Shown: positions 5 to 23,186 of the stretch, in pieces
Position numbering within the stretch: the stretch's first letter is position 1
How the letters are laid out: every line of letters starts with the position of its first letter
Assembly (NCBI GenBank): GCA_007280905.1
Contig: QYQM01000123.1
Location: forward strand, 1-33,430
Direction of reading: 5' to 3'
Source: Porphyromonadaceae bacterium
GTDB taxonomy: Bacteria > Bacteroidota > Bacteroidia > Bacteroidales > UBA12481
Length of the DNA: 33,430 bases
Program-made: the position numbers and the translations under genes
Notes under the pieces: generated by a model
Told to the model about the DNA's origin: nothing
The model's database searches: none
The model's input: the letters and a program-made list of their open reading frames with translations, nothing else

Positions 5-2806
5 CTACTGCCTGCTTTTAATCCACCGGGCTACCCGTTTCCCCTGATTGCTTTGAATCTCGATAAAATAAATACCTTTTTCCAATTCACTAATATCCAA
101 ACTAAATACTTCAGATCCCAGAATCCATTGATTACTCTTTGCTAAAACTTGTCTTCCCTGCAGATCTATAACCCGCACTGAGACCTCCCCGGCGGCCAAT
201 CCGGATGTTTCAATAAACAGCCAATCCGTGGCCGGATTTGGGTAAACAGAAATCCCTGATCCCACATTCAAGGGGTTACCAAGATCACCGGTACTGCTTA
301 TTATATCGGGCTTAACCAGTTTAACATCCATATAGAAGCGGTATTCCCCGGGTTGAAAATTAATCCTGCCATTTACATCAGAGATGAGCACAGAATCCCC
401 GGACCAATATTCATACCACCAACCGGCATGCTGAAAATGAGGATCCGCCCATGATGGCCTAATTCCAAAATTTCCGAGTATTGTTGCATTCATGGAGGTA
501 TGATTCAGATTGATGCGTTTCATGGTATCCTGGAGCGAAATCTGATAATCCGCAGTGGAGAAAAGTTCCTGATTGGTTTTCAGGTTGTTGAGTGCAGAGT
601 AAACCTGATTGAGCCTTTTCCTCCTGTTATCTCCTGCATAGTCCCAACGGATAGGCTTACGTCCAATACGTCCATTGTAATTGATTGAGTAATCATAGCC
701 CAAATCCCCGAACATCCAGATCATTTTAGGACCCGGAACCGTAATAAAAAAGTTGGCAGCCAATTCCATCCGTTTTAAAGCCAAAGGCAGATCCTTGATA
801 AAATAGGCCTGATTTTGCGTGTTTCCCCAAGTGATACATTCATACATAAGTCGCTCTTCATCATGACTTTCCATATATCCGACCAGGTTTGGCTGACTCC
901 AACCCCGTTGTTTATAGGATACCCCTGAAAAGTCCCAGCTACCGCCTGAATACCAGCCACTTACCGCCTGCCGGTAATTATAATTAGAATTACCCCAAAC
1001 CAGCATTCCATAATCCGACAGCTCTTTCTCTTCCGTATTAGCCGTAAAATGTTCCAGAATAACAATAGCTGAGGGATTAGCTAACCGGATCTTATCGGTC
1101 ATTCGTTTCAATATGGCAATGCGGCTGGCATCATAGGCACTCCCATCGCCTGGTGTGTTCGTAAAACCTTTGGTAAAATCAAAACGAAATCCATCAACAT
1201 GATATTCCTTTAGCCAATACGTATTTACGCTATCCACAAATCGCTGAGTGGCAATACTTTCATGGTTGAAATCATAGCCCCAGGCATAGACAGGGTTGGG
1301 TGATTGCTGGTTATACCATGGATTATTGGCGGCAGGACGGTTATTTTGGGCATCCCAGTAAAGTCTCACCAGGGGCGACTGGCCATACGAATGGTTGAGA
1401 ACCATATCCATGATAACGGCGATTCCTTTTTGGTGTGCGGAATCGACGAAGGCTTTAAACGTTCCCTTTGGCCCGTAATATTTGTCCACTGCAAAGTAAA
1501 ACGATGGGTTATAGCCCCAGCTGTCGTTCCCCTCGAACTCCGAGACCGGCATCAGCTCTATCGCATTGATTCCAAGGCTTTTTATATAGTTTAAAGTATC
1601 AGTAAGAGCTTTAAAACTATGTGCTTCGAGAAAATCCCGCAGCAGCAGCTCATAAATGACCAACTTTTGCTTCTGAGGGGCAACAAAACCGGTCGACTTC
1701 CAAATATACTGTTGCTGTGCATCTTGCAGAACCGATACCGCCTGCGTGGTTTTCCCTGTTGGATAGGCAATCAGGTGAGGATAGGTTATTGAATCAATAT
1801 ATCCATCATTCCAGGGATCAGATATTTTATCCGAATAGGGATCAGCAATGCGAATTTCTCCATCAACAAGGTATTGAAACTGATACTCTTTTAAGGGTTC
1901 GAGATTATCGATTTCGATCCAGTATCTCAACCCATCAGGCGTCTTATTCATCAGAAATGATTCATTAACGGCCCAATTGTTGAAATCTCCGATCACAAAA
2001 ACAAATTCTTTCTGAGGAGCAAACAGCACCAAAACGGCTGATTGGTCATTGATGTAATTAATCCCATCTTTTACCCCGGCAGGCAATTCGGAAATAGTAC
2101 CGGCACCTTTAATCAGGTAATTAAATGTATCCGTAACGCTCAATCCTTGGCCAAAGGCTTTGGCTTCAACCAAATGATAACCTGTTTGACCGGCAGATAA
2201 TGAATAAACCAGACTATTGCCGGCAATTCCGGTAATCCTGACACTATCACGAAACAGGACTATCGAATCCGCGCTGGTAGCGGCAATCTGAATGTCGATA
2301 GCTGATCCCGGATCAATTGCTAAAAATTCCTTATCGGGTTTAACAAAATTGATATTCAGTCCGGCTTCGAAAACATCTGCAAAAATATCGGATCCGTCGG
2401 CCGATCTTCCGGTTTTACTGCCGGTTGCATCGCGGAAAACAAATGCCAGTTTAAGAATTTTTTCTGTTGCCGGAACTGCGTAATAGGAACGGATAGAAGG
2501 ACCTATTTTCAATTCCCACAAATTATTACCAAGCGATCTAAGTTTGGCCTTGTTGGTATTTTCACTCCAACCAGCCACTACATATTTCCAGTTCGTCGGA
2601 TCGGTACTCAGGTTTGTGATAACTCCTGTATGAGCCCAAATATCTCCCGTAAAATTGGCAAGCCCGGCGTTTCCCTTTGAAGCATCAAAAATTACGGTAA
2701 CCGAATCATTTTCGGTTGGGAAGGCAGGTTCTGTCCTGACAACCTGAGCCTGAAGCGATATTGACAAGATCCATAAGGAACTAATGAAAAGCGCTGTTTT
2801 ATACAT
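5..2806 (-). CDS. Secreted GH13 alpha-amylase family enzyme with T9SS sorting domain
   Basis: A 933-residue protein likely to hydrolyse alpha-1,4-glucan outside the cell. Residues 1-20 form a signal peptide ending SLQA. Residues about 22-240 are beta-rich N-terminal modules that I cannot name. About 250-345 looks like a CBM48/E-set glycogen-binding-type domain (VIGDFNNW at 271-278). The GH13 barrel follows from about 380: region I MDMVLNH (D467, H472), region II GFRFDF with the nucleophile D543, region III VILEHF with the acid/base E585, and region IV ESHDE with D649. All three catalytic acids are present. The last 80 residues (from VYPNPA at 854) are a T9SS type A sorting domain, so export to the cell surface or medium is expected. 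The gene is last in the susC-susD-susE direction but lies behind a strong terminator. Exact specificity (amylase, pullulanase or neopullulanase type) cannot be read from the sequence. Confidence 0.9.
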   Translation of the reverse strand: MYKTALFISSLWILSISLQAQVVRTEPAFPTENDSVTVIFDASKGNAGLANFTGDIWAHTGVITNLSTDPTNWKYVVAGWSENTNKAKLRSLGNNLWELKIGPSIRSYYAVPATEKILKLAFVFRDATGSKTGRSADGSDIFADVFEAGLNINFVKPDKEFLAIDPGSAIDIQIAATSADSIVLFRDSVRITGIAGNSLVYSLSAGQTGYHLVEAKAFGQGLSVTDTFNYLIKGAGTISELPAGVKDGINYINDQSAVLVLFAPQKEFVFVIGDFNNWAVNESFLMNKTPDGLRYWIEIDNLEPLKEYQFQYLVDGEIRIADPYSDKISDPWNDGYIDSITYPHLIAYPTGKTTQAVSVLQDAQQQYIWKSTGFVAPQKQKLVIYELLLRDFLEAHSFKALTDTLNYIKSLGINAIELMPVSEFEGNDSWGYNPSFYFAVDKYYGPKGTFKAFVDSAHQKGIAVIMDMVLNHSYGQSPLVRLYWDAQNNRPAANNPWYNQQSPNPVYAWGYDFNHESIATQRFVDSVNTYWLKEYHVDGFRFDFTKGFTNTPGDGSAYDASRIAILKRMTDKIRLANPSAIVILEHFTANTEEKELSDYGMLVWGNSNYNYRQAVSGWYSGGSWDFSGVSYKQRGWSQPNLVGYMESHDEERLMYECITWGNTQNQAYFIKDLPLALKRMELAANFFITVPGPKMIWMFGDLGYDYSINYNGRIGRKPIRWDYAGDNRRKRLNQVYSALNNLKTNQELFSTADYQISLQDTMKRINLNHTSMNATILGNFGIRPSWADPHFQHAGWWYEYWSGDSVLISDVNGRINFQPGEYRFYMDVKLVKPDIISSTGDLGNPLNVGSGISVYPNPATDWLFIETSGLAAGEVSVRVIDLQGRQVLAKSNQWILGSEVFSLDISELEKGIYFIEIQSNQGKRVARWIKSRQ

Positions 2807-2912: not shown

Positions 2913-3947
2913 TTAGTTTTTAACGATTACATAGGTATAGATCGGCCCTCTGAGATCGAGTGTAACAGTATAATGACCATTAGTTGCGATCGGGATATTT
3001 GCTCCGTCATACTCGAGTGACAAGTTGGTTTTGTTGTCACCGAAGTTGATGGTCCATGCGTCATTGGCGCGGAATTTAAGATCTCCGGCAACGAGGTCGA
3101 GGGTAATTGACCAAGTGCCCGCTGTAGCATCAAAAGTCATTTTCTGATCGCTGTCCCAGCCGCCTGATGTGGCATTGCCAATCACGCCCCATACCGTTTT
3201 AACAATAGTATAGGTGAGCGCAGGAAGATTCACATTGATTTTATAATACCCGGCTTCAGCTGCCACAATATTTGCTCCATTCGGATCAAGTGTTCCGTTT
3301 GCTCCATCGTCTCCCCAGTTTGTGGTCCAGCTCGGTCCATCGGTAAATTTAAATTGTGTGCCGGCATTTGCGAACCAGATATAACCTTCGTATTTGCCAT
3401 CACTGAGCAATGAACTGACAACCGGTGCTGCACCAGGACTCCAGCCTTGATAGGAACCCGGAACATATAATTTCGGATAGTTGACAATTACCCGGTACGG
3501 TTTAACCGAAAGAGTTAAGATGCTTGAATAGGCACTTGGAACTAAATCGCTTACACTGGCAGCAATGCGAATCTGCAGATCAGCAGAAACAGCGGGAGCC
3601 AGTTCGGCAGCCATCAGCATGTTGTTAAGGTCACCATAGGTCAATGTCCCTGTAAGAGCAGTTGTTGTGATAATAGCTGTCGGTTTAGCGAAATTATCAC
3701 CGGGCAGGCTCATTTCCACCTTATAAGTAACGGCAGCAGCGAAGCCATAATTTGCAGCGGCCGACCAGGTAAAAGTCAAATCGTCTGTAGCATTGGATTC
3801 GGTCAGTTCAAGGCTTAATCCTGCTGCAGGAGCGGTGATAACCGGAGCCGTTGGATCTGAGATTACCGGACCAACTGCCTCTTTCTTACAGGAAGCGAGA
3901 ACCAGTACCGCAGCCATTACGATGTATATTAATCTATACTTCTTCAT
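2913..3947 (-). CDS. SusE/SusF-like outer-membrane starch-binding lipoprotein
   Basis: A 344-residue surface lipoprotein expected to bind alpha-glucan and support the SusC/SusD uptake complex. The signal peptide ends in a lipobox, LASC, with the lipidated Cys at 20. Residues about 25-150 match the SusE N-terminal immunoglobulin-like domain in position and character (PVITAPAAG start, then a beta-rich stretch). Two SusE/SusF-type carbohydrate-binding modules follow: about 157-248 (LYVPGSYQGWSP, QFKFTDG, NWGDDG) and about 252-343 (VWGVIGNATSGGW, LKFRAND, NFGDN). The protein ends directly after the second module. Both modules are strikingly similar to the two inserted in the SusD-like protein encoded just upstream. 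The start is 23 bases after the stop of that gene, consistent with one operon. SusE rather than SusF is chosen because there are only two modules. Confidence 0.88.
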   Translation of the reverse strand: MKKYRLIYIVMAAVLVLASCKKEAVGPVISDPTAPVITAPAAGLSLELTESNATDDLTFTWSAAANYGFAAAVTYKVEMSLPGDNFAKPTAIITTTALTGTLTYGDLNNMLMAAELAPAVSADLQIRIAASVSDLVPSAYSSILTLSVKPYRVIVNYPKLYVPGSYQGWSPGAAPVVSSLLSDGKYEGYIWFANAGTQFKFTDGPSWTTNWGDDGANGTLDPNGANIVAAEAGYYKINVNLPALTYTIVKTVWGVIGNATSGGWDSDQKMTFDATAGTWSITLDLVAGDLKFRANDAWTINFGDNKTNLSLEYDGANIPIATNGHYTVTLDLRGPIYTYVIVKN

Positions 3948-3970: not shown

Positions 3971-6181
3971 TTAATAACCAGTATTCTGTTTAAGGTTCGG
4001 ATTTGCACCAATATCGGAGGCAGGGATCGGGAACAGATTGAATTTACTGTCAACACCGATACCTTCTTTAACATTCCCTTTCCATGGCCACAGGTATGAA
4101 TCACCGGTAAATTTCCCATAGCGGATTAAATCGGTTCTGCGGGTACACTCCCAATAAAGTTCTCTTGCACGTTCATCCAGGATGAAGTCAAGAGTCAGGT
4201 CTCCGGTGGTTATGTTGGCGGAAGCATCGGCATAGGCTCTGGTTCTCAGTTCATTAACCAGTTCCAAAGCTTTTGACATACTACCACTGCCTCCACGAAC
4301 AACTGCTTCGGCATACATAAGATAAACATCAGCTAACCTGAACATCGGGAAATCGGTATCGACAAAGTCAGTGGCCGAACCTGTGGCACCAGTTGATGTG
4401 ACATTCTTGAATTTAGTCACAGCGAAACCCTGGGTAAAGTCGTCCATGATTTTTGCGATTTCAAGATTTTGACCGCTGGTATGGAACAAAGCACGATGGT
4501 CAAAACTTTCCCTGACAACTGTATAGGTATAATCCGGGACACCCAATTTCATTGTAATGGTATAGGTTCCTGCTGCAGCGACGGCAATATTGGCTCCATT
4601 CTGTTCCAGGCTGCCGTTTACTCCGTCATCTCCATAGTTCACATCCCAGCCATCATTTGCGCGGAACTTAATGTCTCCGACTTTTAGATCCAGGATTGCT
4701 GTCCATAAACCGGTTGCTGCATCGAAAGTCATATTCTGATCGCTGTTCCAGCCGTCTGCGGTAGCCGACCCGATAACACCCCAATCAGTTTTCAGCATGG
4801 TATAGGTTAAAGCGTTCAGATTTACATTCAGCTTATAATATCCGGGGTCGGCAGCTACTATGTTGGCACCGTTTTTGTCGAGCGTTCCATTAGCTCCATC
4901 ATCGCCATAATTCACATCCCAGTTAGGTCCTTCGGTAAACTTGAATTGTGTATTGGCATCTGGGAAATAGAGATAACCTTCATAATTCTTATCGCTTTTA
5001 ACAGAAGCAATAACGGTAGTCGTATTTGTAGGGTCCCAGGCATTTGGTTTCTGATAAGAACCAGGAACATACAAAACAGGATAACTCGATTTTTTAGGAA
5101 TATAAACGGGAGAAACAGCTAATGAACCGGTCAGATTCGGATAGAATTTATGAACCAAAGCTTTAGTGGTGCGGTTTCCGGCCCACCCTCCGGTAATACC
5201 GAAATCTGCCGGAACCATATTTCCTCCAACTGAGGCAAAGATAATGAAACTCATCCCGCCATAGGTTTTGGTTCGCAATCCATCGAAGGTAACGGGAAAA
5301 ATGATCTCTTTCGAATTGTTGTTATCGGCCAGGAAATTATTCTGGTAATTTGGTTCCAGTGTATAACCTGCAGCGATAACCTTATCGCAATATTCAGCAC
5401 ACTCGGTATTCTTGGCGGTTCCGGTGTAAACTTCAGCGTTCAGGTAAAGTTTAGCCAGCAAAGACCACACGGCTGCTTTATCGGCCCGGCCGTACTCATT
5501 GGTTCTTGCAACAGGCACCAGAGGTTCCACCTCTTTCAGTTCAGACTCAATATATGCGAAGATTTCTGCGCGATCCTTCTGAACCGGGAAGAAAGCACCA
5601 ACCGCATCTGCGTCAGTCACAAACGGAACATTACCAAACATATCCATTGCGTGATAGTAGCTGAGGGCTCTCATAAAGCGGGCTTCAGCGCGATAACCCT
5701 GGATATTGGTTTTATCAACGCCGGAAATTCCTCTGCTATCGAGTTTGGCATCTGATGATTCACGGATAAACTCATTACAGAGTGATATCTGATAATATAT
5801 CCTGTTATACATGGCCGTAATAAACTCACCCGATGGTGTCCAGTTCATTTCATGGAAATTTCTCAGGGTACCATCGTTCCATCCATTAACAGCTTCATCA
5901 GTAGGAAGTTCCTGAGCAAACCAGTATTGACGCAGGTAAGTGGAAAATCCCTCATCGATACCACTGATATCAGGCATACCAGCCGGACCCTGCTGACCGC
6001 TGACGGCCAGCCCGGCATAAACTTTAGCGAGTACCTGGTAATAGGATACCGGGTTGTCGTATACGGAGGCAGATGTGACCTCATCCTTATCCAGTGGAAT
6101 AGTATCCAGATCTTTAATACAGGAAGTAAATCCGAATACAAAGGATACCACCAGGCATGAATATAATGAAAACTTTTTCAT
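3971..6181 (-). CDS. SusD/RagB-like glycan-binding lipoprotein with two embedded SusE/SusF-type modules
   Basis: The surface partner of the SusC-type transporter, expected to cap it and bind maltodextrin. I take the ATG at 6181 (736 residues) because MKKFSLYSCLVVSFVFGFTSC is a clean lipoprotein signal with Cys 21; an in-frame TTG at 6196 would add five residues. The N-terminal SusD part shows TPR-like helices (GYRAEARFMRALSYYHAMD at about 162-180, then DMFGNVPFV). Near residue 365 the SusD sequence is broken by about 190 residues that form two SusE/SusF-type modules (LYVPGSYQ and VNYGDDGANG in the first; WGVIGSATADGW and FRANDGWDVNYGDDG in the second). The SusD fold then resumes with DHRALFHTSGQ and ends with the usual C-terminal part (FPMFRLADVYLMYAEA, LDFILDERARELYWE, FPIPASDI, NPNLKQNTGY). 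Without the insert the length is about 545, normal for SusD. It is 25 bases downstream of susC. Confidence 0.92.
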   Translation of the reverse strand: MKKFSLYSCLVVSFVFGFTSCIKDLDTIPLDKDEVTSASVYDNPVSYYQVLAKVYAGLAVSGQQGPAGMPDISGIDEGFSTYLRQYWFAQELPTDEAVNGWNDGTLRNFHEMNWTPSGEFITAMYNRIYYQISLCNEFIRESSDAKLDSRGISGVDKTNIQGYRAEARFMRALSYYHAMDMFGNVPFVTDADAVGAFFPVQKDRAEIFAYIESELKEVEPLVPVARTNEYGRADKAAVWSLLAKLYLNAEVYTGTAKNTECAEYCDKVIAAGYTLEPNYQNNFLADNNNSKEIIFPVTFDGLRTKTYGGMSFIIFASVGGNMVPADFGITGGWAGNRTTKALVHKFYPNLTGSLAVSPVYIPKKSSYPVLYVPGSYQKPNAWDPTNTTTVIASVKSDKNYEGYLYFPDANTQFKFTEGPNWDVNYGDDGANGTLDKNGANIVAADPGYYKLNVNLNALTYTMLKTDWGVIGSATADGWNSDQNMTFDAATGLWTAILDLKVGDIKFRANDGWDVNYGDDGVNGSLEQNGANIAVAAAGTYTITMKLGVPDYTYTVVRESFDHRALFHTSGQNLEIAKIMDDFTQGFAVTKFKNVTSTGATGSATDFVDTDFPMFRLADVYLMYAEAVVRGGSGSMSKALELVNELRTRAYADASANITTGDLTLDFILDERARELYWECTRRTDLIRYGKFTGDSYLWPWKGNVKEGIGVDSKFNLFPIPASDIGANPNLKQNTGY

Positions 6182-6206
6182 AATCTTTAATTCCAATTAG
6201 TTACGA

Positions 6207-9188
6207 TTAAAAATCCAATTTCAGTCCAAGCAGGAATACTCGCGGACGAGGATAAAAATTACTATCAAGGCCATTGAATACTTCAGGATCCAGGCCTTTA
6301 TAGTTGGTCAGAACAAATGCATTCTGGACGGTCAGGGACAAATAGAGATCCAGCTTTTTATCGGCCAGGTTTTTGAACTGGTAACCCAGGTTAATGTTAT
6401 CCATACGGAAGAAAGAGGCATCCTCAATATAATAATCTGACCAATACTTTGGATTGACCCACCCGGTATAAACAGCATCCGACACTACGTTAGTAGCGTA
6501 ACCAACTCCATTATACATATATGCTGAAACACCGTTACCGGAATTCACATTATTGTATACGTAGTTTCCGAGGTTAACCCTGCCTGCAAAGGAGAAATCC
6601 CAGTTTTTATAGGAGAACCTTGAGTTGATACCCATAAATACATCGGGTGAAGGTTTTTTATACTGGTATTTATCAAGATCAGAAATTTTGCCATCGCCAT
6701 TGCGGTCGACATACAATCCTTCGATTGGTTTTCCGGCCTTATCATATACCTGCTCATAGACATAATAGGAATAAGCAGGGAAGCCAACTGAATGAATCTG
6801 GATCGTATTACCGACACCACCGCTGACACCTCCCACAAAGACTCCTTTGTAGTTTGGATCATCGGTAGCGGTTAGCTTAGTAATTTCATTCTGATTAAAG
6901 GAAACATTATATCCGACTTCCCAGGCCATATCTTCAGTGGAAATGATCCGTCCCAAAACCGAAAACTCGACTCCTTTGTTTAAGAGGTCGCCTACGTTCG
7001 TCAGGATTTGATTGGTAAGATTAGTACCTGCAGGAACCGGAATTGTATTGATCAGGTCTTTGGTAGGCCTGTAATAATATTCAATAGATCCGGTCAAGCG
7101 ATTTTTCAGGAAACCAAAGTCCAATCCAATGTTATAGGTTGTCGTTTCTTCCCATTTCAGGTTGGCATCGTAGCCTTCCGGACGGAGCGTTGTGATCCAC
7201 TGATTACCAAACTGATATGCTGCAGTAGGTTCACTGTAGGTGTAACGGGCGAGGTATGGATAATCACCAGAGGTGATATTTTGCTGACCGGTAACACCAT
7301 AACCCAGACGGAGTTTCAGGTCGGAAACAGCGCTGACATCCTTCAGAAAACTCTCTTCCTTGATTTTCCATGCAATTGCTGCAGATGGGAAGAGGCCCCA
7401 GCGGTTGGCTTTGGCAAAACGTGAGGAACCGTCATCTCTTAGAGTAAAAGTTAATAAATACTTATCCATCAAAGCATAATTGACACGGCCAAAGAAAGAT
7501 ACCAGATAGCTTTCAGTAGCATAATCTGTATCGCTGTTGACTTTTGTTGCAGCCTCATTTGTTTCATAATAGGTGCCTTGCCGCCAGAAATGCTGCCAGG
7601 AATATCCGGCCATAACATCCAACTTGCTTTGCCCAAATTCCTTGACATAATTCAGATAGAAATCCAGCAGATCATTCTTCTTTGACTGATCATATTTTGC
7701 ATTTATTCCGCCAATTGAGTTTCCATTGGCGTCTATTTCATAATTTTGACGGGCAGATGCAGGGACAAAAACGGTGCCCTGACTGTTCGAACGATCAGTT
7801 GCGATGTTCAGGTTAGCCCTCAGGTCCGGTAGGAAATGAAATTTATAATCAACTTGTACATTGCCCATTAAACGGTTCACATTCGATTTGTCATTTCGCA
7901 GTTCGAGCAGTCCCAGCGGGTTTCGGGTTGCGATGTTGATTGGATCTCCATTGGTCTGAAGCCATTCAAAATAGCCGCCATAGGTAGTTGTGTCGCTAAG
8001 GACAGCTTGTGTCGGATCAAAACCGAGAGCACTTCCAATGGCCCCACGGTTTGCAAATCGGTTGTTTTCCCTCATTCCCTTGGCATTCACGCTGACTTTC
8101 AGGTGGTTGTCAAAGAAGGTGGGATCCAGTGAAAGGGCACCTGTATAGCGCTCCATTGCCGAAGTTTTCAGAATACCCTTCAGGTTTGAATAACCGAGAG
8201 ATGCACGGTATGGCAGTGTTTTGATTGAGCCGGTGGCACTGAGGTTATGATCATGTCCGAAAGAGTTTTTGAAAATTTCCTTCTGCCAGTCGGTTTTTGC
8301 ATTTCCCAGAACAGCTAATGCATTAGGATTATCTTTATACCGCTCCTCATAAAGAGCCCGGTACTCATCTGCACCAAGAACAGAAATCTGATTGGGAATA
8401 GTAAAATAAGAAGCCTTACCGTCATAACTGATTTTCAGTTTACTTCCGGCCACTCCCTTTTTTGTTGTAATAATAATAACCCCGTTGGAAGCACGTGAAC
8501 CATAGATAGCGGTTGCAGAAGCATCCTTCAGAATGGTAAAAGATTCGATATCGTTCGGATTAATTGCATTCAGCGGGTTCCTCATACCATCGATCCCTTC
8601 ATTGTCGAGTGGAATTCCATCGATAACCCACAGCGGAGCATTACTTGCCGACATGGATGAACCGCCACGGATGCGGACAGTAGCTCCTTCACCCGGAGCG
8701 CCCCCACCGGTAGTAATCTGAACACCTGATGCTTTACCAATCAGGAGTTCCTGAGGCGAAGCAATAGTGCCACGGTTAAAATCCTTTGAACTGATGGCTG
8801 TAACCGATCCGGTAGCATCACGTTTTTTTTGCGTACCGTAACCGATAACTACAACACCAGCAATGGATTCAGTTGAAGAAACCAGTCTGACATTAATTGT
8901 TCTGACGGTTCCGACTGTAACCTCCTGCATCGTATAACCGACATAGGAAAACACCAGGATCTGACCCTGCGCTGCACTTACTGCAAATTTACCAAAAGCG
9001 TCCGTAATGGTTCCCTTGGTAGGATCAGATTTGAGACTGACAGTGGCACCAATTAAGGGATCACCACTTTGAGAATCAGTCACTGTTCCTGTAATCAACT
9101 GTTGAGCGAAGGCCATCTGACCCATAAACAACAGGATGAAAACCGGCAGGAACAGCTTTCCGAGAAAAGAAAAACTATCTCTGTTCAT
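6207..9188 (-). CDS. SusC/RagA-type TonB-dependent outer-membrane transporter
   Basis: A 993-residue outer-membrane beta-barrel that imports oligosaccharides, here presumably maltodextrins, using TonB energy. Signal peptide 1-28 ending MAFA. Residues about 32-105 are the carboxypeptidase-regulatory-like extension (GTVTDSQSGDPLIGATVSLK), typical of SusC. The plug runs about 113-245 with the SusC signatures VVVIGYGTQKKRDATGSV, VRIRGGSS, PLWVIDGIP and TAIYGSRASNGVIIITTKKG. The rest is barrel, ending in the aromatic-rich strand LLGLKLDF. Length and order are those of the family. It is the first gene of the minus-strand susC-susD-susE unit; the long divergent gap to the LacI-type gene must carry its promoter and contains a candidate operator at 9336-9353. 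Substrate is inferred from the neighbouring amylases and maltose phosphorylase. Confidence 0.95.
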   Translation of the reverse strand: MNRDSFSFLGKLFLPVFILLFMGQMAFAQQLITGTVTDSQSGDPLIGATVSLKSDPTKGTITDAFGKFAVSAAQGQILVFSYVGYTMQEVTVGTVRTINVRLVSSTESIAGVVVIGYGTQKKRDATGSVTAISSKDFNRGTIASPQELLIGKASGVQITTGGGAPGEGATVRIRGGSSMSASNAPLWVIDGIPLDNEGIDGMRNPLNAINPNDIESFTILKDASATAIYGSRASNGVIIITTKKGVAGSKLKISYDGKASYFTIPNQISVLGADEYRALYEERYKDNPNALAVLGNAKTDWQKEIFKNSFGHDHNLSATGSIKTLPYRASLGYSNLKGILKTSAMERYTGALSLDPTFFDNHLKVSVNAKGMRENNRFANRGAIGSALGFDPTQAVLSDTTTYGGYFEWLQTNGDPINIATRNPLGLLELRNDKSNVNRLMGNVQVDYKFHFLPDLRANLNIATDRSNSQGTVFVPASARQNYEIDANGNSIGGINAKYDQSKKNDLLDFYLNYVKEFGQSKLDVMAGYSWQHFWRQGTYYETNEAATKVNSDTDYATESYLVSFFGRVNYALMDKYLLTFTLRDDGSSRFAKANRWGLFPSAAIAWKIKEESFLKDVSAVSDLKLRLGYGVTGQQNITSGDYPYLARYTYSEPTAAYQFGNQWITTLRPEGYDANLKWEETTTYNIGLDFGFLKNRLTGSIEYYYRPTKDLINTIPVPAGTNLTNQILTNVGDLLNKGVEFSVLGRIISTEDMAWEVGYNVSFNQNEITKLTATDDPNYKGVFVGGVSGGVGNTIQIHSVGFPAYSYYVYEQVYDKAGKPIEGLYVDRNGDGKISDLDKYQYKKPSPDVFMGINSRFSYKNWDFSFAGRVNLGNYVYNNVNSGNGVSAYMYNGVGYATNVVSDAVYTGWVNPKYWSDYYIEDASFFRMDNINLGYQFKNLADKKLDLYLSLTVQNAFVLTNYKGLDPEVFNGLDSNFYPRPRVFLLGLKLDF

Positions 9189-9582: not shown

Positions 9583-10602
9583 ATGATCTCAAGAGGACAA
9601 GTAACAATCAAAGATCTGGCGGAGGAATTGGGAATATCCCCCTCAACTGTGTCCAAAGCCCTTAAAAATCATCCTGATATCAGTCAGGAAACCCGGAAAA
9701 AGGTTAACGACCTTGCAAAACTTTGGAATTACTATCCAAATCCGATCGCACTGAGTCTCCGTAATAGCCGGACAAAAACCGTCGGATTGATCATTCCGGA
9801 GATCGTACACCATTTTTTTTCCTCGGTGATCAGCGGAATCGAGGATGTTGCCTACGATGCAGGGTATAACGTGATGATATACCAGTCGAACGAATCTTTC
9901 AACCGGGAACTTATTGCTATTCAGGCATTATTGAACAGCCGGGTTGAGGGAATACTCATCTCCCTGTCGAAGGAAACAAGAAATTTTGATCACCTGAGAA
10001 ATGTTCTCGACCACGGTGTTCCTCTAGGGATGTTTGATCGGGTATGCGATGAAATCGAAACAGATAAGGTAACTGTTGACGACTACCAGGGAGCCTATGC
10101 AGCAGTGAGCCACCTGATCCGTACCGGATGCCGGAGGATTTCGCATCTTTCGGGGCCTCCCGGTTTACCGATAGCAGACTTTCGCCGGGGAGGTTACCTG
10201 GATGCACTTCGAGATAATAACCTCGAGATTAACAGGGATTTAATCATTTATTGCGACAATTTCAAACAAGCCCTTATACGAACAAAGCAATTAATGAATC
10301 TTTCTGAACCACCTGATGCTTTCTTTACGGTTAACGAATTTACGGCGACCGGGGTAGTGAAATCCCTCTATGACCTGAAAATAAAAATTCCGGAAGAAGT
10401 ATCCGTTTTCGCCTTTTCTAACGGATTAATTACCCAGGTAATCAACCCTGCTTTAAGTACAGTCGACCAACATGCCTATCAGATCGGTCAAACCTCCGCC
10501 CTACTGCTTCTCGACCGTCTGTTAAACCAGCAGATCACCCGTCCGTTCATTCATCAGGTCATAAAAACAGAACTGATCATACGGGAATCGACCCGTTCCT
10601 GA
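9583..10602 (+). CDS. LacI/GalR-family transcriptional regulator of the alpha-glucan locus
   Basis: A 339-residue cytoplasmic DNA-binding regulator of normal family length. The N-terminal helix-turn-helix is at about 8-27 (VTIKDLAEELGISPSTVSKA), followed by the recognition/hinge part (NHPDIS, then YYPNPIALSLR at 50-60). Residues 65 onward form the periplasmic-binding-protein-like effector domain (KTVGLIIPEIVHHFFSSVI, GVPLGMFDRVCDE, DDYQGAYAAVSHLI, STVDQHAYQIGQ). It is divergent from susC and directly upstream of the transporter, pgmB and GH65 genes, so control of both arms by a maltose-type effector is likely. Candidate operators lie next to its start, in the susC gap and before the transporter. 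Bacteroides uses a different regulator (SusR) for its starch locus; a LacI-type regulator resembles the arrangement in flavobacteria and relatives. Confidence 0.93.
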   Translation: MISRGQVTIKDLAEELGISPSTVSKALKNHPDISQETRKKVNDLAKLWNYYPNPIALSLRNSRTKTVGLIIPEIVHHFFSSVISGIEDVAYDAGYNVMIYQSNESFNRELIAIQALLNSRVEGILISLSKETRNFDHLRNVLDHGVPLGMFDRVCDEIETDKVTVDDYQGAYAAVSHLIRTGCRRISHLSGPPGLPIADFRRGGYLDALRDNNLEINRDLIIYCDNFKQALIRTKQLMNLSEPPDAFFTVNEFTATGVVKSLYDLKIKIPEEVSVFAFSNGLITQVINPALSTVDQHAYQIGQTSALLLLDRLLNQQITRPFIHQVIKTELIIRESTRS

Positions 10603-10619
10603 CACCTTTTTTCTCACTC

Positions 10620-10637
10620 TTAGCAAACGATTGAAAT
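10620..10637. promoter_or_regulatory. Candidate LacI-family operator, site 3
   Basis: Read on the minus strand this is ATTTCAATCGTTTGCTAA, matching site 1 at 16 of 18 positions, in the opposite orientation. It is 17 bases after the stop of the LacI-type gene and about 80 bases upstream of the -7 element of the transporter gene. Such a distance would suit looping or activation as well as repression. Confidence 0.5.
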
Positions 10638-10715
10638 GGCAGTTGGGGTGTTATTTAACTTGATCCATCATGCCCTCAATCAGGCTATTCATATACGAAT
10701 GAGCAGCTGATTACC

Positions 10716-10723
10716 TATATTTG
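10716..10723 (+). promoter_or_regulatory. -7 promoter element for the maltose transporter operon
   Basis: TATATTTG is a perfect match to the Bacteroidota -7 consensus TAnnTTTG, 22 bases before the transporter ATG. No convincing TTG at -33 is visible, which would suit a regulated promoter. The rest of the 143-base gap holds operator site 3 and no clear terminator for the regulator gene. Confidence 0.55.
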
Positions 10724-10745
10724 ATTACCGAGACAATCCTTTTTT

Positions 10746-12260
10746 ATGAAAAAACAACCGCACCTTAGTTTTTGGCAAATCTGGAACATGAGTTTTGGAT
10801 TTCTGGGAATTCAAATGGGTTTTGCCCTGCAAAACGCCAATGTGAGCAGGATTTTCGAGACTCTTGGAGCAAAAATCGAAAACATCCCGATACTCTGGAT
10901 TGCTGCACCACTTACCGGGTTAATCGTTCAGCCGATTATTGGCCATTACAGCGACAAAACATGGACCTGGCTGGGAAGAAGAAGGCCCTATTTTCTTTCA
11001 GGGGCCATCTTTGCGTCAATCGCCCTGGTCCTGATGCCAAACTCACCGGCTTTGTGGATAGCAGCTGGTATGCTTTGGATCATGGATGCGTCAATCAATG
11101 TCTCGATGGAACCTTTCAGGGCTTTCGTCGGAGACAATGTTTCCTCCGAACAACGGACACTTGGATTCGCTATGCAAAGCTTTTTTATTGGGATAGGGGC
11201 CGTTATCGCCTCACTCCTTCCCTATGTTTTTACCAATTGGTTCGGCATTGCGAATACGGCAGCAGAAGGTATAATCCCTGCATCTGTCAAATGGGCCTTC
11301 TACGTTGGTGCGGTTGTTTTTATCGGAACCGTGTTGTGGACAGTCATCCGTTCGAAGGAGTATTCCCCGGAGGTGTTGGCAGAATTTGGCAAACTGGAGC
11401 AATCCGGCTCAGATGCATCCTCTGGAACCATGCGCGTTCCTTCTTCCAAGTTTTTCCGGAGCGGAATCATCTGGACATTTTTCGGATTGGTGTTTGCAGG
11501 ATTAATCTATCAGCTAAAACTTGAGAAAGAGCTTTACATTCTCGGATTTGGCCTCACATTTTTCGGAATTCTACAATTAATTGCAGGTCAGCTGGTTAAG
11601 AATGGATCATCAAACGGGCTAACCGAAATTCTTACAGATTTGCGGCTGATGCCTAAAACCATGTCGCAACTGGCCATTGTCCAGTTTTTCTCATGGCTTG
11701 CCCTCTTTTCGATGTGGATTTATACCACGTCTGCTGTGACAAGCAGTGTATATGGCACCACCGATACCACATCGCAATTATATAATGACGGCGCAGATTG
11801 GGTCGGTGTTCTTTTTGGGGTCTACAATGGTTTTGCGGCTGTTTTTGCCTTTCTACTACCGATTATTGCGCGATACACCTCACGAAAAATCACTCATTCC
11901 ATTGCCCTGGTCACGGGAGGTTTAGGACTATGCAGCATTTTCCTGATAAAAGATCCAAATTTACTGATCATTCCATTTATCGGGATCGGGCTGGCATGGG
12001 CCAGTATCCTCTCTATGCCGTATGCGATTCTCACCGGATCGCTGCCCCAGAACAAGATGGGGATCTATATGGGCATTTTTAATTTCTTCATTGTTATTCC
12101 ACAAATACTGGCAGCAACCTTGCTGGGCTTCTTAACGAGAAACCTGTTTGGAGGTCATGCAGTATATGCCCTAGTATTCGGAGGTATATCTATGATAATA
12201 GCAGCAATCACTGTGATATTTGTTACGGACAAGGACGATGGAATTTTGATTAAGAAATGA
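10746..12260 (+). CDS. MFS-type sugar transporter, probably maltose uptake (SLC45/GPH-like)
   Basis: A 504-residue inner-membrane protein with about twelve hydrophobic segments, likely a proton-coupled maltose importer. The loop between helices 2 and 3 carries GHYSDKTWTWLGRRRPY at 66-82, the motif typical of the SLC45/GPH sugar-transporter branch of the MFS. A polar central loop is visible around residues 210-240. It precedes the genes for beta-phosphoglucomutase and maltose phosphorylase, seven bases before the first of these. This order (transporter, pgmB, GH65) is a known maltose cassette in Bacteroidota, and I base the substrate on it. The start ATG follows a short T-run and a perfect -7 element. 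The 3' end includes one copy of an 11-bp tandem duplication. Confidence 0.88.
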   Translation: MKKQPHLSFWQIWNMSFGFLGIQMGFALQNANVSRIFETLGAKIENIPILWIAAPLTGLIVQPIIGHYSDKTWTWLGRRRPYFLSGAIFASIALVLMPNSPALWIAAGMLWIMDASINVSMEPFRAFVGDNVSSEQRTLGFAMQSFFIGIGAVIASLLPYVFTNWFGIANTAAEGIIPASVKWAFYVGAVVFIGTVLWTVIRSKEYSPEVLAEFGKLEQSGSDASSGTMRVPSSKFFRSGIIWTFFGLVFAGLIYQLKLEKELYILGFGLTFFGILQLIAGQLVKNGSSNGLTEILTDLRLMPKTMSQLAIVQFFSWLALFSMWIYTTSAVTSSVYGTTDTTSQLYNDGADWVGVLFGVYNGFAAVFAFLLPIIARYTSRKITHSIALVTGGLGLCSIFLIKDPNLLIIPFIGIGLAWASILSMPYAILTGSLPQNKMGIYMGIFNFFIVIPQILAATLLGFLTRNLFGGHAVYALVFGGISMIIAAITVIFVTDKDDGILIKK

Positions 12261-12269
12261 TTAAGAAAT
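12248..12269 (+). repeat. 11-bp tandem duplication at the transporter/pgmB junction
   Basis: GATTAAGAAAT occurs twice in direct succession (12248-12258 and 12259-12269), followed by the similar GATTAAAGGAT. The first copy ends in the transporter stop TGA and the second runs into the pgmB ATG. Removing one copy would leave an ATGA stop/start overlap. Confidence 0.8.
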
Positions 12270-12909
12270 GATTAAAGGATGCATTTTTGACCTTGACGGG
12301 GTAGTCGTAGATACAGCGCGTTACCATTTTCAAGCCTGGCATAGGCTGGCAAGGGAACTGGGCTTTAATTTCACCGAAGAACATAATGAAAGATTAAAAG
12401 GGGTTAGCCGGATGGCTTCTCTGAATATTTTACTCGAAGTTGGCGGTCTGTCGTTAACTGATCCTGAAAAACAGAAATTAGCTGCTCAGAAAAATGAATG
12501 GTATCTGGAACATATCAGAAAAATGACACCTGCCGATATACTGCCGGGAGTAACTGAATTCCTCAATCTGTTAAGGTCTGTTGGTAAGAAGATAGCATTA
12601 GGTACCGCCAGCAAAAACGCCCGTATTATTTTAACTCAGATCGGCCTTTCTGCAGCATTTGATTCCATCGTAGACGGAAACCGGGTAGCCAACGCAAAAC
12701 CTGACCCGGAAGTTTTCCTCATTGCTGCTGCTGATTTAAAGCTGGGGCCAAAAGATTGCCTGGTTTTTGAAGATGCGATCGCCGGAGTTGAGGCAGCACA
12801 TAATGGCGGAATGAAGTGCATCGGAATTGGCCATCATGATATCCTGAAAAAAGCAGATAAAATCATCCCTGGTTTTAAAGAGGCAACTTTAGATCTGATT
12901 GAATTTTAA
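12268..12909 (+). CDS. pgmB: Beta-phosphoglucomutase
   Basis: A 213-residue cytoplasmic HAD-superfamily enzyme that converts beta-D-glucose-1-phosphate to glucose-6-phosphate. Motif I is FDLDGVVVDT with the nucleophile D8 and acid/base D10. The helical cap has RLKGVSRMASL at 43-53, the substrate-specificity loop characteristic of beta-phosphoglucomutase. Motif II is LGTASKNA at about 112-119, motif III the lysine in NAKPDPEVF, and motif IV VFEDAIAGVEAA. Length is as expected. It lies between the sugar transporter and the GH65 phosphorylase, whose product is its substrate, so the three genes form one maltose-catabolic unit. Confidence 0.95.
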   Translation: MIKGCIFDLDGVVVDTARYHFQAWHRLARELGFNFTEEHNERLKGVSRMASLNILLEVGGLSLTDPEKQKLAAQKNEWYLEHIRKMTPADILPGVTEFLNLLRSVGKKIALGTASKNARIILTQIGLSAAFDSIVDGNRVANAKPDPEVFLIAAADLKLGPKDCLVFEDAIAGVEAAHNGGMKCIGIGHHDILKKADKIIPGFKEATLDLIEF

Positions 12910-12920
12910 ACGAATCTTGC

Positions 12921-15230
12921 ATGCGTAAATACCTTCTTGAAGACGAATGGCTCATTATTGAAGAGGGCTTTGACCGCGAAGACCATAAGAGATCGGAGTC
13001 TCTGTTCAGTCTTGGTAACGGACACATGGGTATGCGGGCCAATTTTGAAGAAACCTATACTGGTCCATCGCTGCGCGGAACCTATCTTGCCGGAATCTAT
13101 TATCCGGATAAAACACGCGTCGGCTGGTGGAAAAACGGTTATCCTGAATATTTTGCCAAGGTTCTTAATGCACCAAACTGGATTGGGATGAAATTCAGGT
13201 TCAACGAAGAGGAGCTAAACCTGGATACCATGAAAGTCTCCTATTTCCGCCGGGTGTTAAATATGAAAGAGGGTATCCTGTCAAGGGAATTCATTGCATC
13301 CTGGTCCGATGGGAAACAGATCAGGGTTGAAACAGAACGGTTTTTATCGATGAAGAGAAGGGAGATTGGTGCAATCCGCTATTATATCTCCCCGCTAAAT
13401 TTCTCCGGAACCCTGGAGGCCGAGCTATTCATCGACGGAAATGTGGTAAACGAGGATGCTAACTACGATGAAAAATTTTGGGAACCTGTTGACCAGTCGG
13501 GGGATGGTGCTAATTGTTATTTGCGCAGCCGGACAAAAAAGAGCGCCTTTGATATCTGCATGGCGATGCATTCTGAATGCTTATTCCTGAACGGCCAGAA
13601 AGCTATTAGCCCGGAATTAATTGTTAATCAACAATATGTTTCAAATCGATATCAATTCGATGTCAAAGAAGGGGATCAAATCCGGTTCACCAAAATTGCA
13701 TGCGTAACCACATCCAGAGATTACGTGCCCGATCAGCTTTTATTTAATGCAGGTCAGATACTGGACCATGCGGTTATTTCGGGTTATGAAAATCTCAAAC
13801 ACGAACAGATCACTGCCTGGGCGGACAAATGGAAGACCAGCGATATTGTGATTGAAGGAGATATATCTGCTCAGCAGGGAATCCGTTTCAATATTTTTCA
13901 TCTGAACCAAACCTATACGGGTTACGACCCCTTACTGAATATCGGTCCTAAAGGGTTTACCGGTGAAAAATACGGCGGCAGTACCTATTGGGATACGGAA
14001 GCCTATTGCCTTCCCTTTTATCTGAATACTGCTGACAAGGAAGTTGCACGAAATCTTTTGATTTACCGATACAGGCATCTTGGCAAGGCTATTCAGAATG
14101 CAGAAAAGCTTGGGTTTACGGATGGTGCTGCATTGTACCCAATGGTTACCATCAACGGTGAGGAGTGCCACAATGAATGGGAAATCACTTTTGAAGAAAT
14201 CCATCGGAACGGAGCTATTGCATACGCTGTATATAATTATATACGTCACACCGGAGACGACTATTACCTCGCTGAATATGGACTGGAAGTACTGATTGGA
14301 ATTTCCCGTTTCTGGTCGCAGCGGTTTAACTTTTCCGATCCCAAGCAACTATTTGTAATGCTTGGCGTTACGGGTCCCAATGAATATGAGAACAATGTAA
14401 ATAATAATTGGTATACCAATTACATAGCTTCCTGGACACTTACTTACACCCTTGAAAGCATAGATTTTGTCAGGGGAAAGTACCCGGACGACTGGAACAG
14501 GATCGAACAAAAATCGAAATTCAGGATGATCCCCGAAACCAGCCGATGGTCAACCATACTCAATCATGTTTTCCTGCCGGCCGATGATAACCTGGGGATA
14601 TTCCTGCAGCAGGAAGGTTATCTCGATAAAGAGCAGCTTCTTGCCTCTGACCTGAGCCCTGATGAGAGGCCGATTAACCAGCACTGGTCATGGGACAGAA
14701 TACTTCGTTCCTGTTTTATCAAGCAGGCAGATGTCCTGGAAGGGTTATATCTTTTTGAGGATCATTTCAGTCCCGATATTATTCGTCGGAATTTCGACTT
14801 TTATGAACCCCGGACGGTACATGAATCTTCCCTTTCGCCGTGTGTTCACGCCATCCTGGCATCCAAGCTGGGTTATATTGATACAGCCTATCAATTGTAC
14901 CTCAGGACCAGCCGGCTTGATCTGGATGATTACAACCATGAAGTGCAAGAAGGTTGCCACATCACGAGCATGGCAGGCACGTGGCTGGCAATTGTAGAAG
15001 GATTTGGCGGAATGCGCGTAATCGACAATCAACTCCATTTTAATCCGCTTCTTCCGCAGGGTTGGACTTCCCTGTCGTTTACCGTGCATTTCAGGGGCCA
15101 TCTGCTGGTAATCATTATCGACAAACGAAGTGTCAGGGTTATTGATCAGGGAGATTCTGCGATGGAACTTTTTATCAACAATACAGGTTACCAGATTAAA
15201 CCAGGAACCGAACTTACCGTGCAGTTATAA
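12921..15230 (+). CDS. Maltose phosphorylase-like GH65 enzyme
   Basis: A 769-residue cytoplasmic glycoside phosphorylase. It is expected to split maltose with phosphate into glucose and beta-glucose-1-phosphate. The GH65 N-terminal beta domain starts with the conserved WLIIEEGF and SLFSLGNGHMGMRANFEE. The (alpha/alpha)6 catalytic part shows KYGGSTYWDTEAY at 350-362, NGEECHNEWEITFEEIHRNG, and the general-acid motif TGPNEY at 484-489 with E488. The phosphate-binding segment is TVHESSLSP at 632-640 (H634, S636, S637). There is no hydrolase-type second catalytic acid to place, as expected for an inverting phosphorylase. The residue patterns fit maltose phosphorylase better than trehalose or kojibiose phosphorylase, and the pgmB neighbour supports this. 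It starts 11 bases after pgmB. Confidence 0.9.
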   Translation: MRKYLLEDEWLIIEEGFDREDHKRSESLFSLGNGHMGMRANFEETYTGPSLRGTYLAGIYYPDKTRVGWWKNGYPEYFAKVLNAPNWIGMKFRFNEEELNLDTMKVSYFRRVLNMKEGILSREFIASWSDGKQIRVETERFLSMKRREIGAIRYYISPLNFSGTLEAELFIDGNVVNEDANYDEKFWEPVDQSGDGANCYLRSRTKKSAFDICMAMHSECLFLNGQKAISPELIVNQQYVSNRYQFDVKEGDQIRFTKIACVTTSRDYVPDQLLFNAGQILDHAVISGYENLKHEQITAWADKWKTSDIVIEGDISAQQGIRFNIFHLNQTYTGYDPLLNIGPKGFTGEKYGGSTYWDTEAYCLPFYLNTADKEVARNLLIYRYRHLGKAIQNAEKLGFTDGAALYPMVTINGEECHNEWEITFEEIHRNGAIAYAVYNYIRHTGDDYYLAEYGLEVLIGISRFWSQRFNFSDPKQLFVMLGVTGPNEYENNVNNNWYTNYIASWTLTYTLESIDFVRGKYPDDWNRIEQKSKFRMIPETSRWSTILNHVFLPADDNLGIFLQQEGYLDKEQLLASDLSPDERPINQHWSWDRILRSCFIKQADVLEGLYLFEDHFSPDIIRRNFDFYEPRTVHESSLSPCVHAILASKLGYIDTAYQLYLRTSRLDLDDYNHEVQEGCHITSMAGTWLAIVEGFGGMRVIDNQLHFNPLLPQGWTSLSFTVHFRGHLLVIIIDKRSVRVIDQGDSAMELFINNTGYQIKPGTELTVQL

Positions 15231-20123: not shown

Positions 20124-21704
20124 TTATTGTTTGATCTCTTTAGCTGGTTCCTGCTTTTTCATTTTTGCTGCAATTCGATCGGCTGCCCGTTCAGCCAGTG
20201 CAGTTATGGTAAGTGATGGATTTACGCCAGGGTTAGCGGAAATGGCTGAACCATCAATAACATATAGGTTCTCATACCCAAACACCCGGTGATCACTGTT
20301 GATGACTCCTGTTTCCCGGCTGTCACCCATGCAAGCGCCACCAAGTATATGAGCCGTTGTTGGGATTCCAAAGAGCGATTCAGTTGGAAGCACTAATGGT
20401 TTTCCATTGATTATCCCGGCATATTTCCTAGCCAGATCCTGGGCCTCCGGTATGAATGCCGAAGGTGCGGAACCTTGCTCGACACCCGTTCGGACGCCGA
20501 ACAAACCCCTCTTCAGATTCAGGGTACTATCCCGGGTTTGCATGAAAAGAAGAATCTGGGTACGGTCGGCCCAATTACGCGTGAAATATACCTTCGCATT
20601 CGCCACTGGATGGAGCATTAAATCACCTAGAATCCGCAATATCCTACCAATCAGTGTCTTTCCGGAGATCATCGGAGCCATCAGTAACCGCCAGAATCCT
20701 GACCCAGACGGATACCTGACGGGTTCGAGATGACTGAACTCATCGGTGTTGACTATTGAGCCGATGGCAATACCCTCGGAGAATTTTTTAGTCTTATCAC
20801 TGCTAACGACACCTATCAATGCTTCATTATTCGTGCGGACATGCGCACCGATGAGGTCTGACAAATCCGGAAGTGTGGTTTTTTTAAGTTTGAGAAGCAG
20901 GGGAACCGAACCAAGCACCCCGCCGGAAAAAATAAATGCCCGGGTGTGCAACTTGATTGTTCTGAATCCACCGGTTCGCCTGATTATTATATCATAGCCC
21001 TGATTACCATGTTTTCCCATTGGGATGACGCTTATGACCCGTGAGCTAGCCATTACTGTAACACCTTCTTTTTCAGCCATATACAAATAATTTTTATCTA
21101 AGGTGTTTTTCGCATTGTATCGGCAGCCCACCATACAACCACCGCAAAAACGGCAACCCTCTCGCTCAGGTCCGCTACCGTTAAAATAGGGGTCAGCTAC
21201 CTTTACTTCCGGCTCTCCAAAGAAAACGGCAACATGGGTAGCTGAAAACTGATCCTTTTTTCCTATCAAATCAGCAAGCTGTCCGAGTGCATAGTCGCCC
21301 GGTCCAAACTTTGGGTTTTGGGCTACTCCCAGCATATCCGAGGCGATCTTATAGTAGGGAGCCAATTCTTTCTCCCAATCCATGAGGTTTTTCCATGATC
21401 CGGTTTTGAAAAAATCAGTTTTAGGAACCGGAAGCGTGTTGGCATAAACCAGGGATCCCCCGCCCACACCTGTTCCGGCCAGAACAGTGATATGACGAAA
21501 AAGTGCTATCCTGAAAAATCCATAAAACCTAAGTCCGGGAACCCATAGCCATTTTTTGAGATTCCAGTTTCGTTTGGGAAAATCGTTTTCAGTGAACCTT
21601 CTTCCTTGTTCGACCACAAGAACTTTATAACCCTTGCGGACCAATCGCAGCGCACTAACCGACCCTCCAAAGCCGGATCCCATAATAATAAAATCATATT
21701 CCAT
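20124..21704 (-). CDS. GMC-type FAD-dependent oxidoreductase (cholesterol oxidase-like)
   Basis: A 526-residue flavoenzyme. The FAD-binding GSGFGGS is at 9-15 with the acidic residue in VVEQGRR at 30-36; GTGVGGGSLVYAN at 77-89 is the second flavin-contact motif. The C-terminal GMC signature is complete: ILGGACMG, then LYVIDGSAISANPGVNPSLTITALAERAADRI. A Cys cluster, CRFCGGCMVGC at 184-194, is followed by RYNAKNTLDKNYL; this is seen in the actinobacterial ChoD-type branch and could hold metal or an iron-sulfur cluster. No signal peptide is visible. Substrate is unknown; a sterol is unlikely in this organism and a hydroxylated lipid or sugar alcohol is as plausible. Confidence 0.88.
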   Translation of the reverse strand: MEYDFIIMGSGFGGSVSALRLVRKGYKVLVVEQGRRFTENDFPKRNWNLKKWLWVPGLRFYGFFRIALFRHITVLAGTGVGGGSLVYANTLPVPKTDFFKTGSWKNLMDWEKELAPYYKIASDMLGVAQNPKFGPGDYALGQLADLIGKKDQFSATHVAVFFGEPEVKVADPYFNGSGPEREGCRFCGGCMVGCRYNAKNTLDKNYLYMAEKEGVTVMASSRVISVIPMGKHGNQGYDIIIRRTGGFRTIKLHTRAFIFSGGVLGSVPLLLKLKKTTLPDLSDLIGAHVRTNNEALIGVVSSDKTKKFSEGIAIGSIVNTDEFSHLEPVRYPSGSGFWRLLMAPMISGKTLIGRILRILGDLMLHPVANAKVYFTRNWADRTQILLFMQTRDSTLNLKRGLFGVRTGVEQGSAPSAFIPEAQDLARKYAGIINGKPLVLPTESLFGIPTTAHILGGACMGDSRETGVINSDHRVFGYENLYVIDGSAISANPGVNPSLTITALAERAADRIAAKMKKQEPAKEIKQ

Positions 21705-21810
21705 AGGTCAGTATCTTTTTGCTGAAGTTGGGTATTATTTCAGGCTTCCCAAAATAAGACTATTTTTATTCGCTCGTTGTTATTTGTTGTCGAACAAAAA
21801 CTCAATGATT

Positions 21811-23178: not shown

Positions 23179-23186
23179 CTATTCAA

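Follow-up and report, generated by a model that had tools for sequence, protein, structure and literature searches.

SusE and SusF are lipoproteins that carry an N-terminal domain of their own. In Bacteroides thetaiotaomicron (B. theta) they are separate proteins, each with two tandem modules in the solved structures (4fch, 4fem, 4fe9). SusD is described as a hinged lid in PMC7782687, and PMC7618045 presents as debated whether SusE-type proteins and SusCD of the starch system form a stable complex or a dynamic assembly. Variation in SusD itself is also on record: the ‘looped’ and ‘open’ SusDs of marine bacteria, which belong to the same family and substrate class as the protein discussed below, vary in a loop near the binding site, but the loop is of about 17 residues and holds no domain, and the SusE-like protein is separate (PMC11093988), while an F5_SusD-like protein has an extra region of its own beyond the binding-site loop that is reported as non-binding (PMC9599597). 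The present analysis concerns a window of 33,430 nucleotides, the whole stretch of DNA analysed, from a Porphyromonadaceae bacterium (contig QYQM01000123.1 of assembly GCA_007280905.1), and in it a susD gene whose product shares its fold, starch-site residues, SusC partner and alpha-glucan locus with B. theta SusD (3ck7 and others) and 3jys. B. theta SusD, however, has no inserted SusE modules and only some tens of residues between the two blocks that align with this protein, whereas here two modules with the fold of B. theta SusE/SusF lie inside SusD, without the N-terminal SusE domain. It is likely that the protein is the SusD lid of an alpha-glucan locus into whose short loop a SusE module pair was copied anciently, and that it binds starch there. 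The features concerned are:

3971-6181, minus strand: insert-bearing SusD gene, open frame, 736 residues from ATG
5144..6181, minus strand: SusD N-terminal part, residues 1-346, with signal peptide, Cys21 in SCIKDLD and helical core
4511..5143, minus strand: insert, residues 347-557, a linker and two SusE/F-type modules, about 210 residues
4790..5092, minus strand: inserted module A, residues about 364-464, X25/SusE type
4511..4789, minus strand: inserted module B, residues about 465-557, SusF_SusE type
3971..4510, minus strand: SusD C-terminal part, residues 558-736 and stop, beginning just before DHRALFHT
2913..3947, minus strand: adjacent SusE, with an N-terminal PF14292 domain at residues 29-128, then modules A and B
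about 3198-3488, minus strand: SusE module A (own profiles)
about 2919-3197, minus strand: SusE module B (own profiles)

An upstream TTG at 6196 is an alternative SusD start and would give 741 residues. The motif SCIKDLD, read from the sequence as that of a putative surface lipoprotein, occupies residues 20-26, and C21 is nearly invariant in a SusD alignment (A1).

Both parts of the composite are recognized by Pfam in the single protein, as SusD-like_3 (residues 102-247), SusD_RagB (to residue 736), SusF_SusE and X25_BaPul_like. The two SusD/RagB models (PF07980, PF14322) pass with 126.3 bits (cut-off 23.1) and 47.8 bits (cut-off 27), and SusF_SusE (PF16411) reaches 55.9 bits against a cut-off of 27.5 in two stretches, the best of which (469-590) overruns the insert end; X25_BaPul_like barely passes, at 27.4 bits against 27.0. 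PF14292, the N-terminal SusE domain, is absent from the five Pfam families that the protein matches at E up to 1. The NCBIfam model NF033071 ‘SusD’ scores 452.9 bits in two stretches, under its cut-off of 725, and the protein is therefore not filed under this exception model. Solved SusDs likewise align as two blocks, 3jys at residues 40-346 and 558-736 and 3ck7 at 23-364 and 554-736. When the genome was searched against itself, SusD residues 289-558 matched the neighbouring SusE with E 3.5e-75, a similarity well outside what chance would give. From about residue 347 a linker precedes module A and resembles the stretch preceding module A in SusE, in an alignment whose significance was not assessed. 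The initial annotation, made from the sequence alone, had described an interruption of about 190 residues at 367-556, composed of two modules related to the C-terminal pair of the SusE-like protein next door, in a SusD of otherwise normal length. Its borders prove correct to within a few residues and the homology is borne out by Pfam, the own-genome match and the predicted fold; without the insert the core measures about 525 residues, in line with the frames of 502-579 residues of the insert-less SusDs among loci L038-L102.

In insert-less relatives the conserved blocks LVxxF and DxRAxFxT, which flank the insertion site, are separated by a few residues, e.g. DP-TGR. This loop could be read by pattern in 106 of the 147 frames outside the named insert-bearing set, and it comprises 3-7 residues in 87 of the 106. 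Another 19 readings exceed 7 residues. Thirteen of them belong to additional copies or fragments of insert-bearing loci; the remaining six are L203 (14 residues), L098 and L099 (29 each), and L153, L175 and L200. These last three are truncated or have the length typical without an insert, and the pattern probably misread them. By this comparison of sequences, the insert takes the place of a short SusD loop, usually of 3-7 residues.

According to a full-length AlphaFold model built with 32 aligned SusDs (pLDDT 76.8, pTM 0.70), an all-beta insert is joined to a helical core, and the SusD fold is predicted to continue around the inserted modules. The single-chain model aligns to 3jys over residues 36-736 (Z 44.4, root-mean-square deviation (rmsd) 2.2, 465 residues) and reaches Z 40.6 with B. 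theta SusD; by their titles, the matches listed in two fold searches (50 in each) are SusD-family entries. The initial annotation had expected one SusD fold to be restored around the modules, and the model agrees. The all-beta residues 390-557 lie mostly at pLDDT 80-94. Two regions weaken this picture, namely residues 301-390, which cover the linker and the SusD core before the insert and have low confidence (ten-residue means of 43-69), and residues 561-610 just after the insert, where confidence is modest (60-78). A model of the insert alone, built from 17 sequences, is of higher confidence (pLDDT 89.8, pTM 0.83). Searched as a sequence against those of the PDB, the insert returns chance matches only (Photosystem II subunit Z, E 0.3), so that fold comparison was needed. 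With both modules aligned, the model matches SusF 4fe9 (Z 12.4), SusE with maltoheptaose 4fch (Z 12.0, rmsd 5.1, 172 residues over 21-210) and SusE with alpha-cyclodextrin 4fem (Z 11.8), and single modules match X25 starch-binding modules of Sca5 of Ruminococcus bromii (Z 9.6) and of a pullulanase (Z 9.5), proteins that share the single-module fold but are not transporter lids. The rmsd is about 5 over the module pair versus 2.3-2.7 for single modules, and in the model the two modules may sit at a different mutual angle than in SusE.

The layout is not confined to this genome. Within the family, the full-length insert form occurs in 8 of 12 genomes, its own included. Among the best 80 of 107 related loci, 16 have the insert (15 in full, with L090 a fragment) and 64 lack it, the insert-bearing ones coming from metagenome-assembled genomes titled Bacteroidetes, Saprospiraceae and Lentimicrobiaceae. 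A search of 295 genomes of the order gave 47 with a SusD match at E <= 1e-100, 12 of them with the insert; of the 35 lacking it, 18 were inspected at the level of the locus and 17 assessed by frame length. For the class, 78 of 395 genomes matched and five combine a split match with a long frame, by which alone G693 (732 residues) was judged. Across 395 genomes of the phylum, 84 have a match to the insert profile (E <= 1e-10), mainly in stand-alone frames of SusE length; a close SusD (E <= 1e-120) is present in 99, 13 of which carry a SusE-type graft at the loop, and G355 also carries one, though it misses that threshold. In the remainder of the phylum set, 30 loci and three long frames were checked with module profiles and the others by an unsplit match and frame length. 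The family, order, class and phylum samples overlap. Matches in 60 plasmid records all lie below 60% identity (5 of the 60 among the matches listed).

As to the novelty of the protein raised by the initial annotation, a claim to uniqueness falls with this distribution, and some of what is novel now lies in the recurrence of the graft and no longer in the protein; a SusD with inserted SusE/F modules was not found described in the literature searched, a body that included few subscription papers and no domain-architecture database. SusD and SusE modules are known kinds. What appears to be new, against that literature, is their combination in one fold and its apparent recurrence at the same loop.

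The graft takes three forms. Both modules are present in the window, its relatives, Saprospiraceae and family f125 (G366, G460). Module A alone occurs in family f142, in SusDs of 639-670 residues from eight of the 12 genomes in which a close SusD is present; a SusE carrying A and B is encoded alongside in five of the eight, and in the other three the SusE modules are weak or are not found by our profiles. Module B alone occurs in G355, G596 and G409 of family f124 (623-637 residues), in two of which SusE has three B-type modules. Pfam SusF_SusE was matched in the SusDs of L159 and L170 and not in that of L205, whose module is divergent (32 bits with our own profile). Three other long SusDs considered as SusE grafts, G585/L206 (624 residues), G449/L207 (609 residues as a frame) and G484/L208 (600 residues), were rejected for want of any module-profile match. 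The G585 protein (L206:3317-5188, minus strand) carries, in this loop or close to it, a long stretch of another kind, which suggests that the loop accepts other inserts besides SusE modules.

A SusE-type N-terminal domain lies directly downstream in 37 of 39 insert-bearing loci by our own profile, with PF14292 confirming it in L106, L107, L109 and L205. Since SusE is so widely retained, the graft as a rule supplements SusE and does not take its place. The two exceptions are the f125 genomes, in which a glycoside hydrolase gene of family GH53 follows susD and a type IX secretion system (T9SS) protein with several SusE/F modules is encoded a few kilobases away. These GH53 genes (L211:3216-4658 and L212:5009-6499; an endo-galactanase family) stand after the two-module susD with GH13 genes close by. 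Proteins of about 590 residues (L213:3727-5499, minus strand, and L214:3320-5086, plus strand) each hold three SusF_SusE stretches and a T9SS sorting domain and are apparently a secreted version of a SusF. Elsewhere, a frame of 615 residues near an insert-bearing susD (L037:10303-12147, plus strand) contains six stretches similar to the inserted modules. A second SusD of the window’s genome (G000:C40:25314-27801) has a frame of 498 residues, too short for the insert, and an adjoining frame of 512 residues matches the insert profile with 47.9 bits.

Where did the inserted pair come from? The closest relatives of the inserted modules outside SusD are the SusE modules of such loci, and the initial annotation had proposed that the susE next door was copied into susD. 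The two genes are indeed adjacent and share motifs, yet a recent duplication within this genome is highly improbable. Insert and own SusE are 60% identical over 204 aligned residues (58-66% for the modules), whereas the nearest insert of another genome is 83% identical; silent sites are saturated, with four-fold sites identical at 12 of 31 positions in A and 8 of 26 in B; the insert is spread through the family; and in the module-pair trees it groups with other genomes’ inserts and does not pair with its own SusE, although in a tree of A modules alone the separation of inserts from SusE modules is not clear. Gene conversion was considered as well, the A module of the window’s SusE (WIN_E1A) lying near inserted A modules in one tree. 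The four-fold sites show no recent conversion between the insert and its own susE; an older event could have occurred. Agreement at such sites is higher in L027 (A: 16/24) and L028 (B: 21/28), values in which codon bias is not separated from conversion. An artefact, either a chimeric assembly or a wrongly joined frame, is still less probable than recent duplication: the assembly is split into 185 contigs, one of which is the window, but the identical layout recurs across many separate assemblies, and selection, described below, acts on the insert.

The two-module inserts instead keep each other’s company. In a module-pair tree, 19 of them lie on one side of a branch (support 94/47), within an enclosing group (98/99) that also holds 29 SusE pairs: for 18 the genome bears the insert, for ten the locus lacks it (L040, L049 and eight Chryseobacterium), and one, L016, is of unknown state. 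That tree left out L090 (a fragment), G-copies of named records and SusE frames that exceed 420 residues or are poorly covered; a further tree dropped 15 Chryseobacterium rows and the L001-L009 copies. In a second pair tree 24 two-module inserts fall on one side of a branch (83/86), after removal of 17 near-copy or long-branched loci (L024, L025, L028, L035, L051, L053, L055, L056, L063, L065, L069, L072, L073, L074, L152, L156 and L157). Because the two-module inserts unite and do not pair with their own SusEs, the A+B pair is best explained, as far as these trees go, by one old duplication. The single-module forms have other affinities. Among chosen loci, with the weak SusE modules of L107, L160 and L162 dropped, the f142 A-inserts form a clade (98/93) in a group with five f142 SusE A modules (92/85), and in the B-module tree the f124 B-inserts lie among f124 SusE B modules (85/88); an earlier tree had the f124 insert of L170 among them and L169 apart. 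Approximately unbiased (AU) tests on chosen representatives, run after the first tree was seen, reject a single clade of all inserted A modules (54 rows, p 0.024) and of all inserted B modules (48 rows, p 0.0058). Grafting of this kind thus seems to have happened more than once among related bacteria, each time into one and the same loop, which has the look of a recurrent landing site for SusE modules.

Several results detract from this account of one old pair and repeated capture. The branch uniting the two-module inserts is weak in both pair trees, the bootstrap of the 24-insert tree has not settled, and the module trees rest on only 93-105 columns. The A-module tree also rejects the main two-module inserts as one clade (p 0.030), a conflict with the 24-insert tree that marks it as unreliable in detail, and the clade of f142 inserts with f142 SusE A modules is missing from the best A tree (not rejected, p 0.26). 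A SusD-core tree of 95 rows, 34 of them insert-bearing, needs at least nine changes of insert presence, more than the pair tree suggests, and transfer, recombination or loss would therefore also be involved; the insert-less L041 is placed among insert-bearing relatives in SusD-core trees. It could be argued that a single ancestral A+B insertion underlies everything, with the A-only and B-only forms as remnants, loss in other lineages and no repeated capture. The common branch of the 24 two-module inserts and the use of one loop by all forms would fit, but the AU rejections, for all their chosen rows and some 100 columns, and the position of the single-module inserts beside SusE modules from their respective lineages make this scheme unlikely. 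For the wider proposal, in which a recurrent-capture loop acquires A+B, A or B from own SusE and yields a combined lid and glycan-binding protein, with the f125 graft perhaps in SusE’s place, the chances stand about even.

Both partners of the fusion have kept their characteristic residues. D73, R81, W98, Y296 and W320, known starch-site residues of B. theta SusD, were mapped through the 3ck7 alignment: equivalents of D73, R81 and W98 are present in 39 of 39 insert-bearing SusDs (near-copies counted), that of W320 in 38 of 39, and an aromatic residue at 296 in 38 of 39. One SusD, L172 (G109, 692 residues; 682-2757, minus strand), appears about 50 core residues short before the insert; two N stand exactly at the junction with the frame running across, and the missing residues, the W320 equivalent among them, are accordingly attributed to an assembly gap. 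Within the insert, six tryptophans are invariant in 17 aligned sequences. Tryptophan occupies the two zones in 34/36 and 34/36 inserted A modules, in 28/28 and 27/28 inserted B modules, and in 3/3 and 2/3 single-B inserts. Ratios of nonsynonymous to synonymous substitution rates among six genomes (15 pairs), where finite, are 0.046-0.114 for insert A, 0.044-0.148 for insert B and 0.049-0.088 for the SusD core, rough values because silent sites are near saturation. By these ratios the insert is under purifying selection.

If a copy of the C-terminal pair of starch-binding modules of a SusE entered the short SusD loop in the distant past, the modules would, by analogy, bind starch or glycogen as they do in SusE. 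Tethered covalently to the hinged lid, they could hold polysaccharide or freshly cut maltodextrin beside the mouth of SusC and add avidity on top of the lid’s own starch site. Part of SusE function would in this way be built obligatorily into SusCD, one to one, with the covalent graft fixing the ratio of binding modules to transporters. The ‘lid with its own glycan-capture arms’ of the initial annotation is a reasonable functional inference, and the apparent recurrence of the graft is a hint that evolution can make the lid capture starch on its own account. Alternatively, the modules might serve as a docking or spacer element for SusE, a surface amylase or a second SusCD, with no need to bind starch themselves. 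SusE is said, in the title of Foley 2018, to help uptake independently of starch binding. The utilisome paper stresses protein assembly (PMC7618045). The invariance of the six tryptophans is nonetheless what would be expected of binding modules that have been kept, and grafts of A or B alone make more sense if a module binds than if it is a fixed dock, which leaves docking a doubtful explanation next to starch capture by the lid. SusE modules that are covalent on the lid amount to a natural, fixed-stoichiometry version of the SusE-SusCD complex, in which structure and growth could show directly whether starch binding by the lid aids uptake. A SusD loop that tolerates domains of about 90-210 residues should also be useful for engineering tagged or re-targeted transporters.

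The insert-bearing SusD belongs to an alpha-glucan uptake locus, with SusC, SusE, GH13 enzymes, GH65 and a LacI regulator around it. The genes run in the order susC-susD-susE-GH13 amylase with intergenic gaps of 25, 23 and 106 bases, respectively, and a divergent group of alpha-glucan genes (9583..15230) begins with the regulator:

6207..9188, minus strand: SusC, TonB-linked outer-membrane transporter (TIGR04056, 787.5 bits)
5..2806, minus strand: alpha-amylase of GH13 type that carries a T9SS sorting domain and closes the row
9583-10602, plus strand: LacI regulator, first of the divergent alpha-glucan genes
10746-12260, plus strand: MFS transporter, same divergent group
12268-12909, plus strand: HAD-family protein, same divergent group
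12921-15230, plus strand: GH65, same divergent group
21634-23178 and 23187-24737, plus strand: two more GH13 alpha-amylases (21634..24737)

Farther along the window, a frame of 197 residues (16773-17366, plus strand) between a PDZ/aspartyl-protease gene and YkuD genes has no Pfam match at 1e-5, and near the window end a group II intron reverse transcriptase/maturase (RVT_1, GIIM) is encoded at 32373-33395 on the minus strand.
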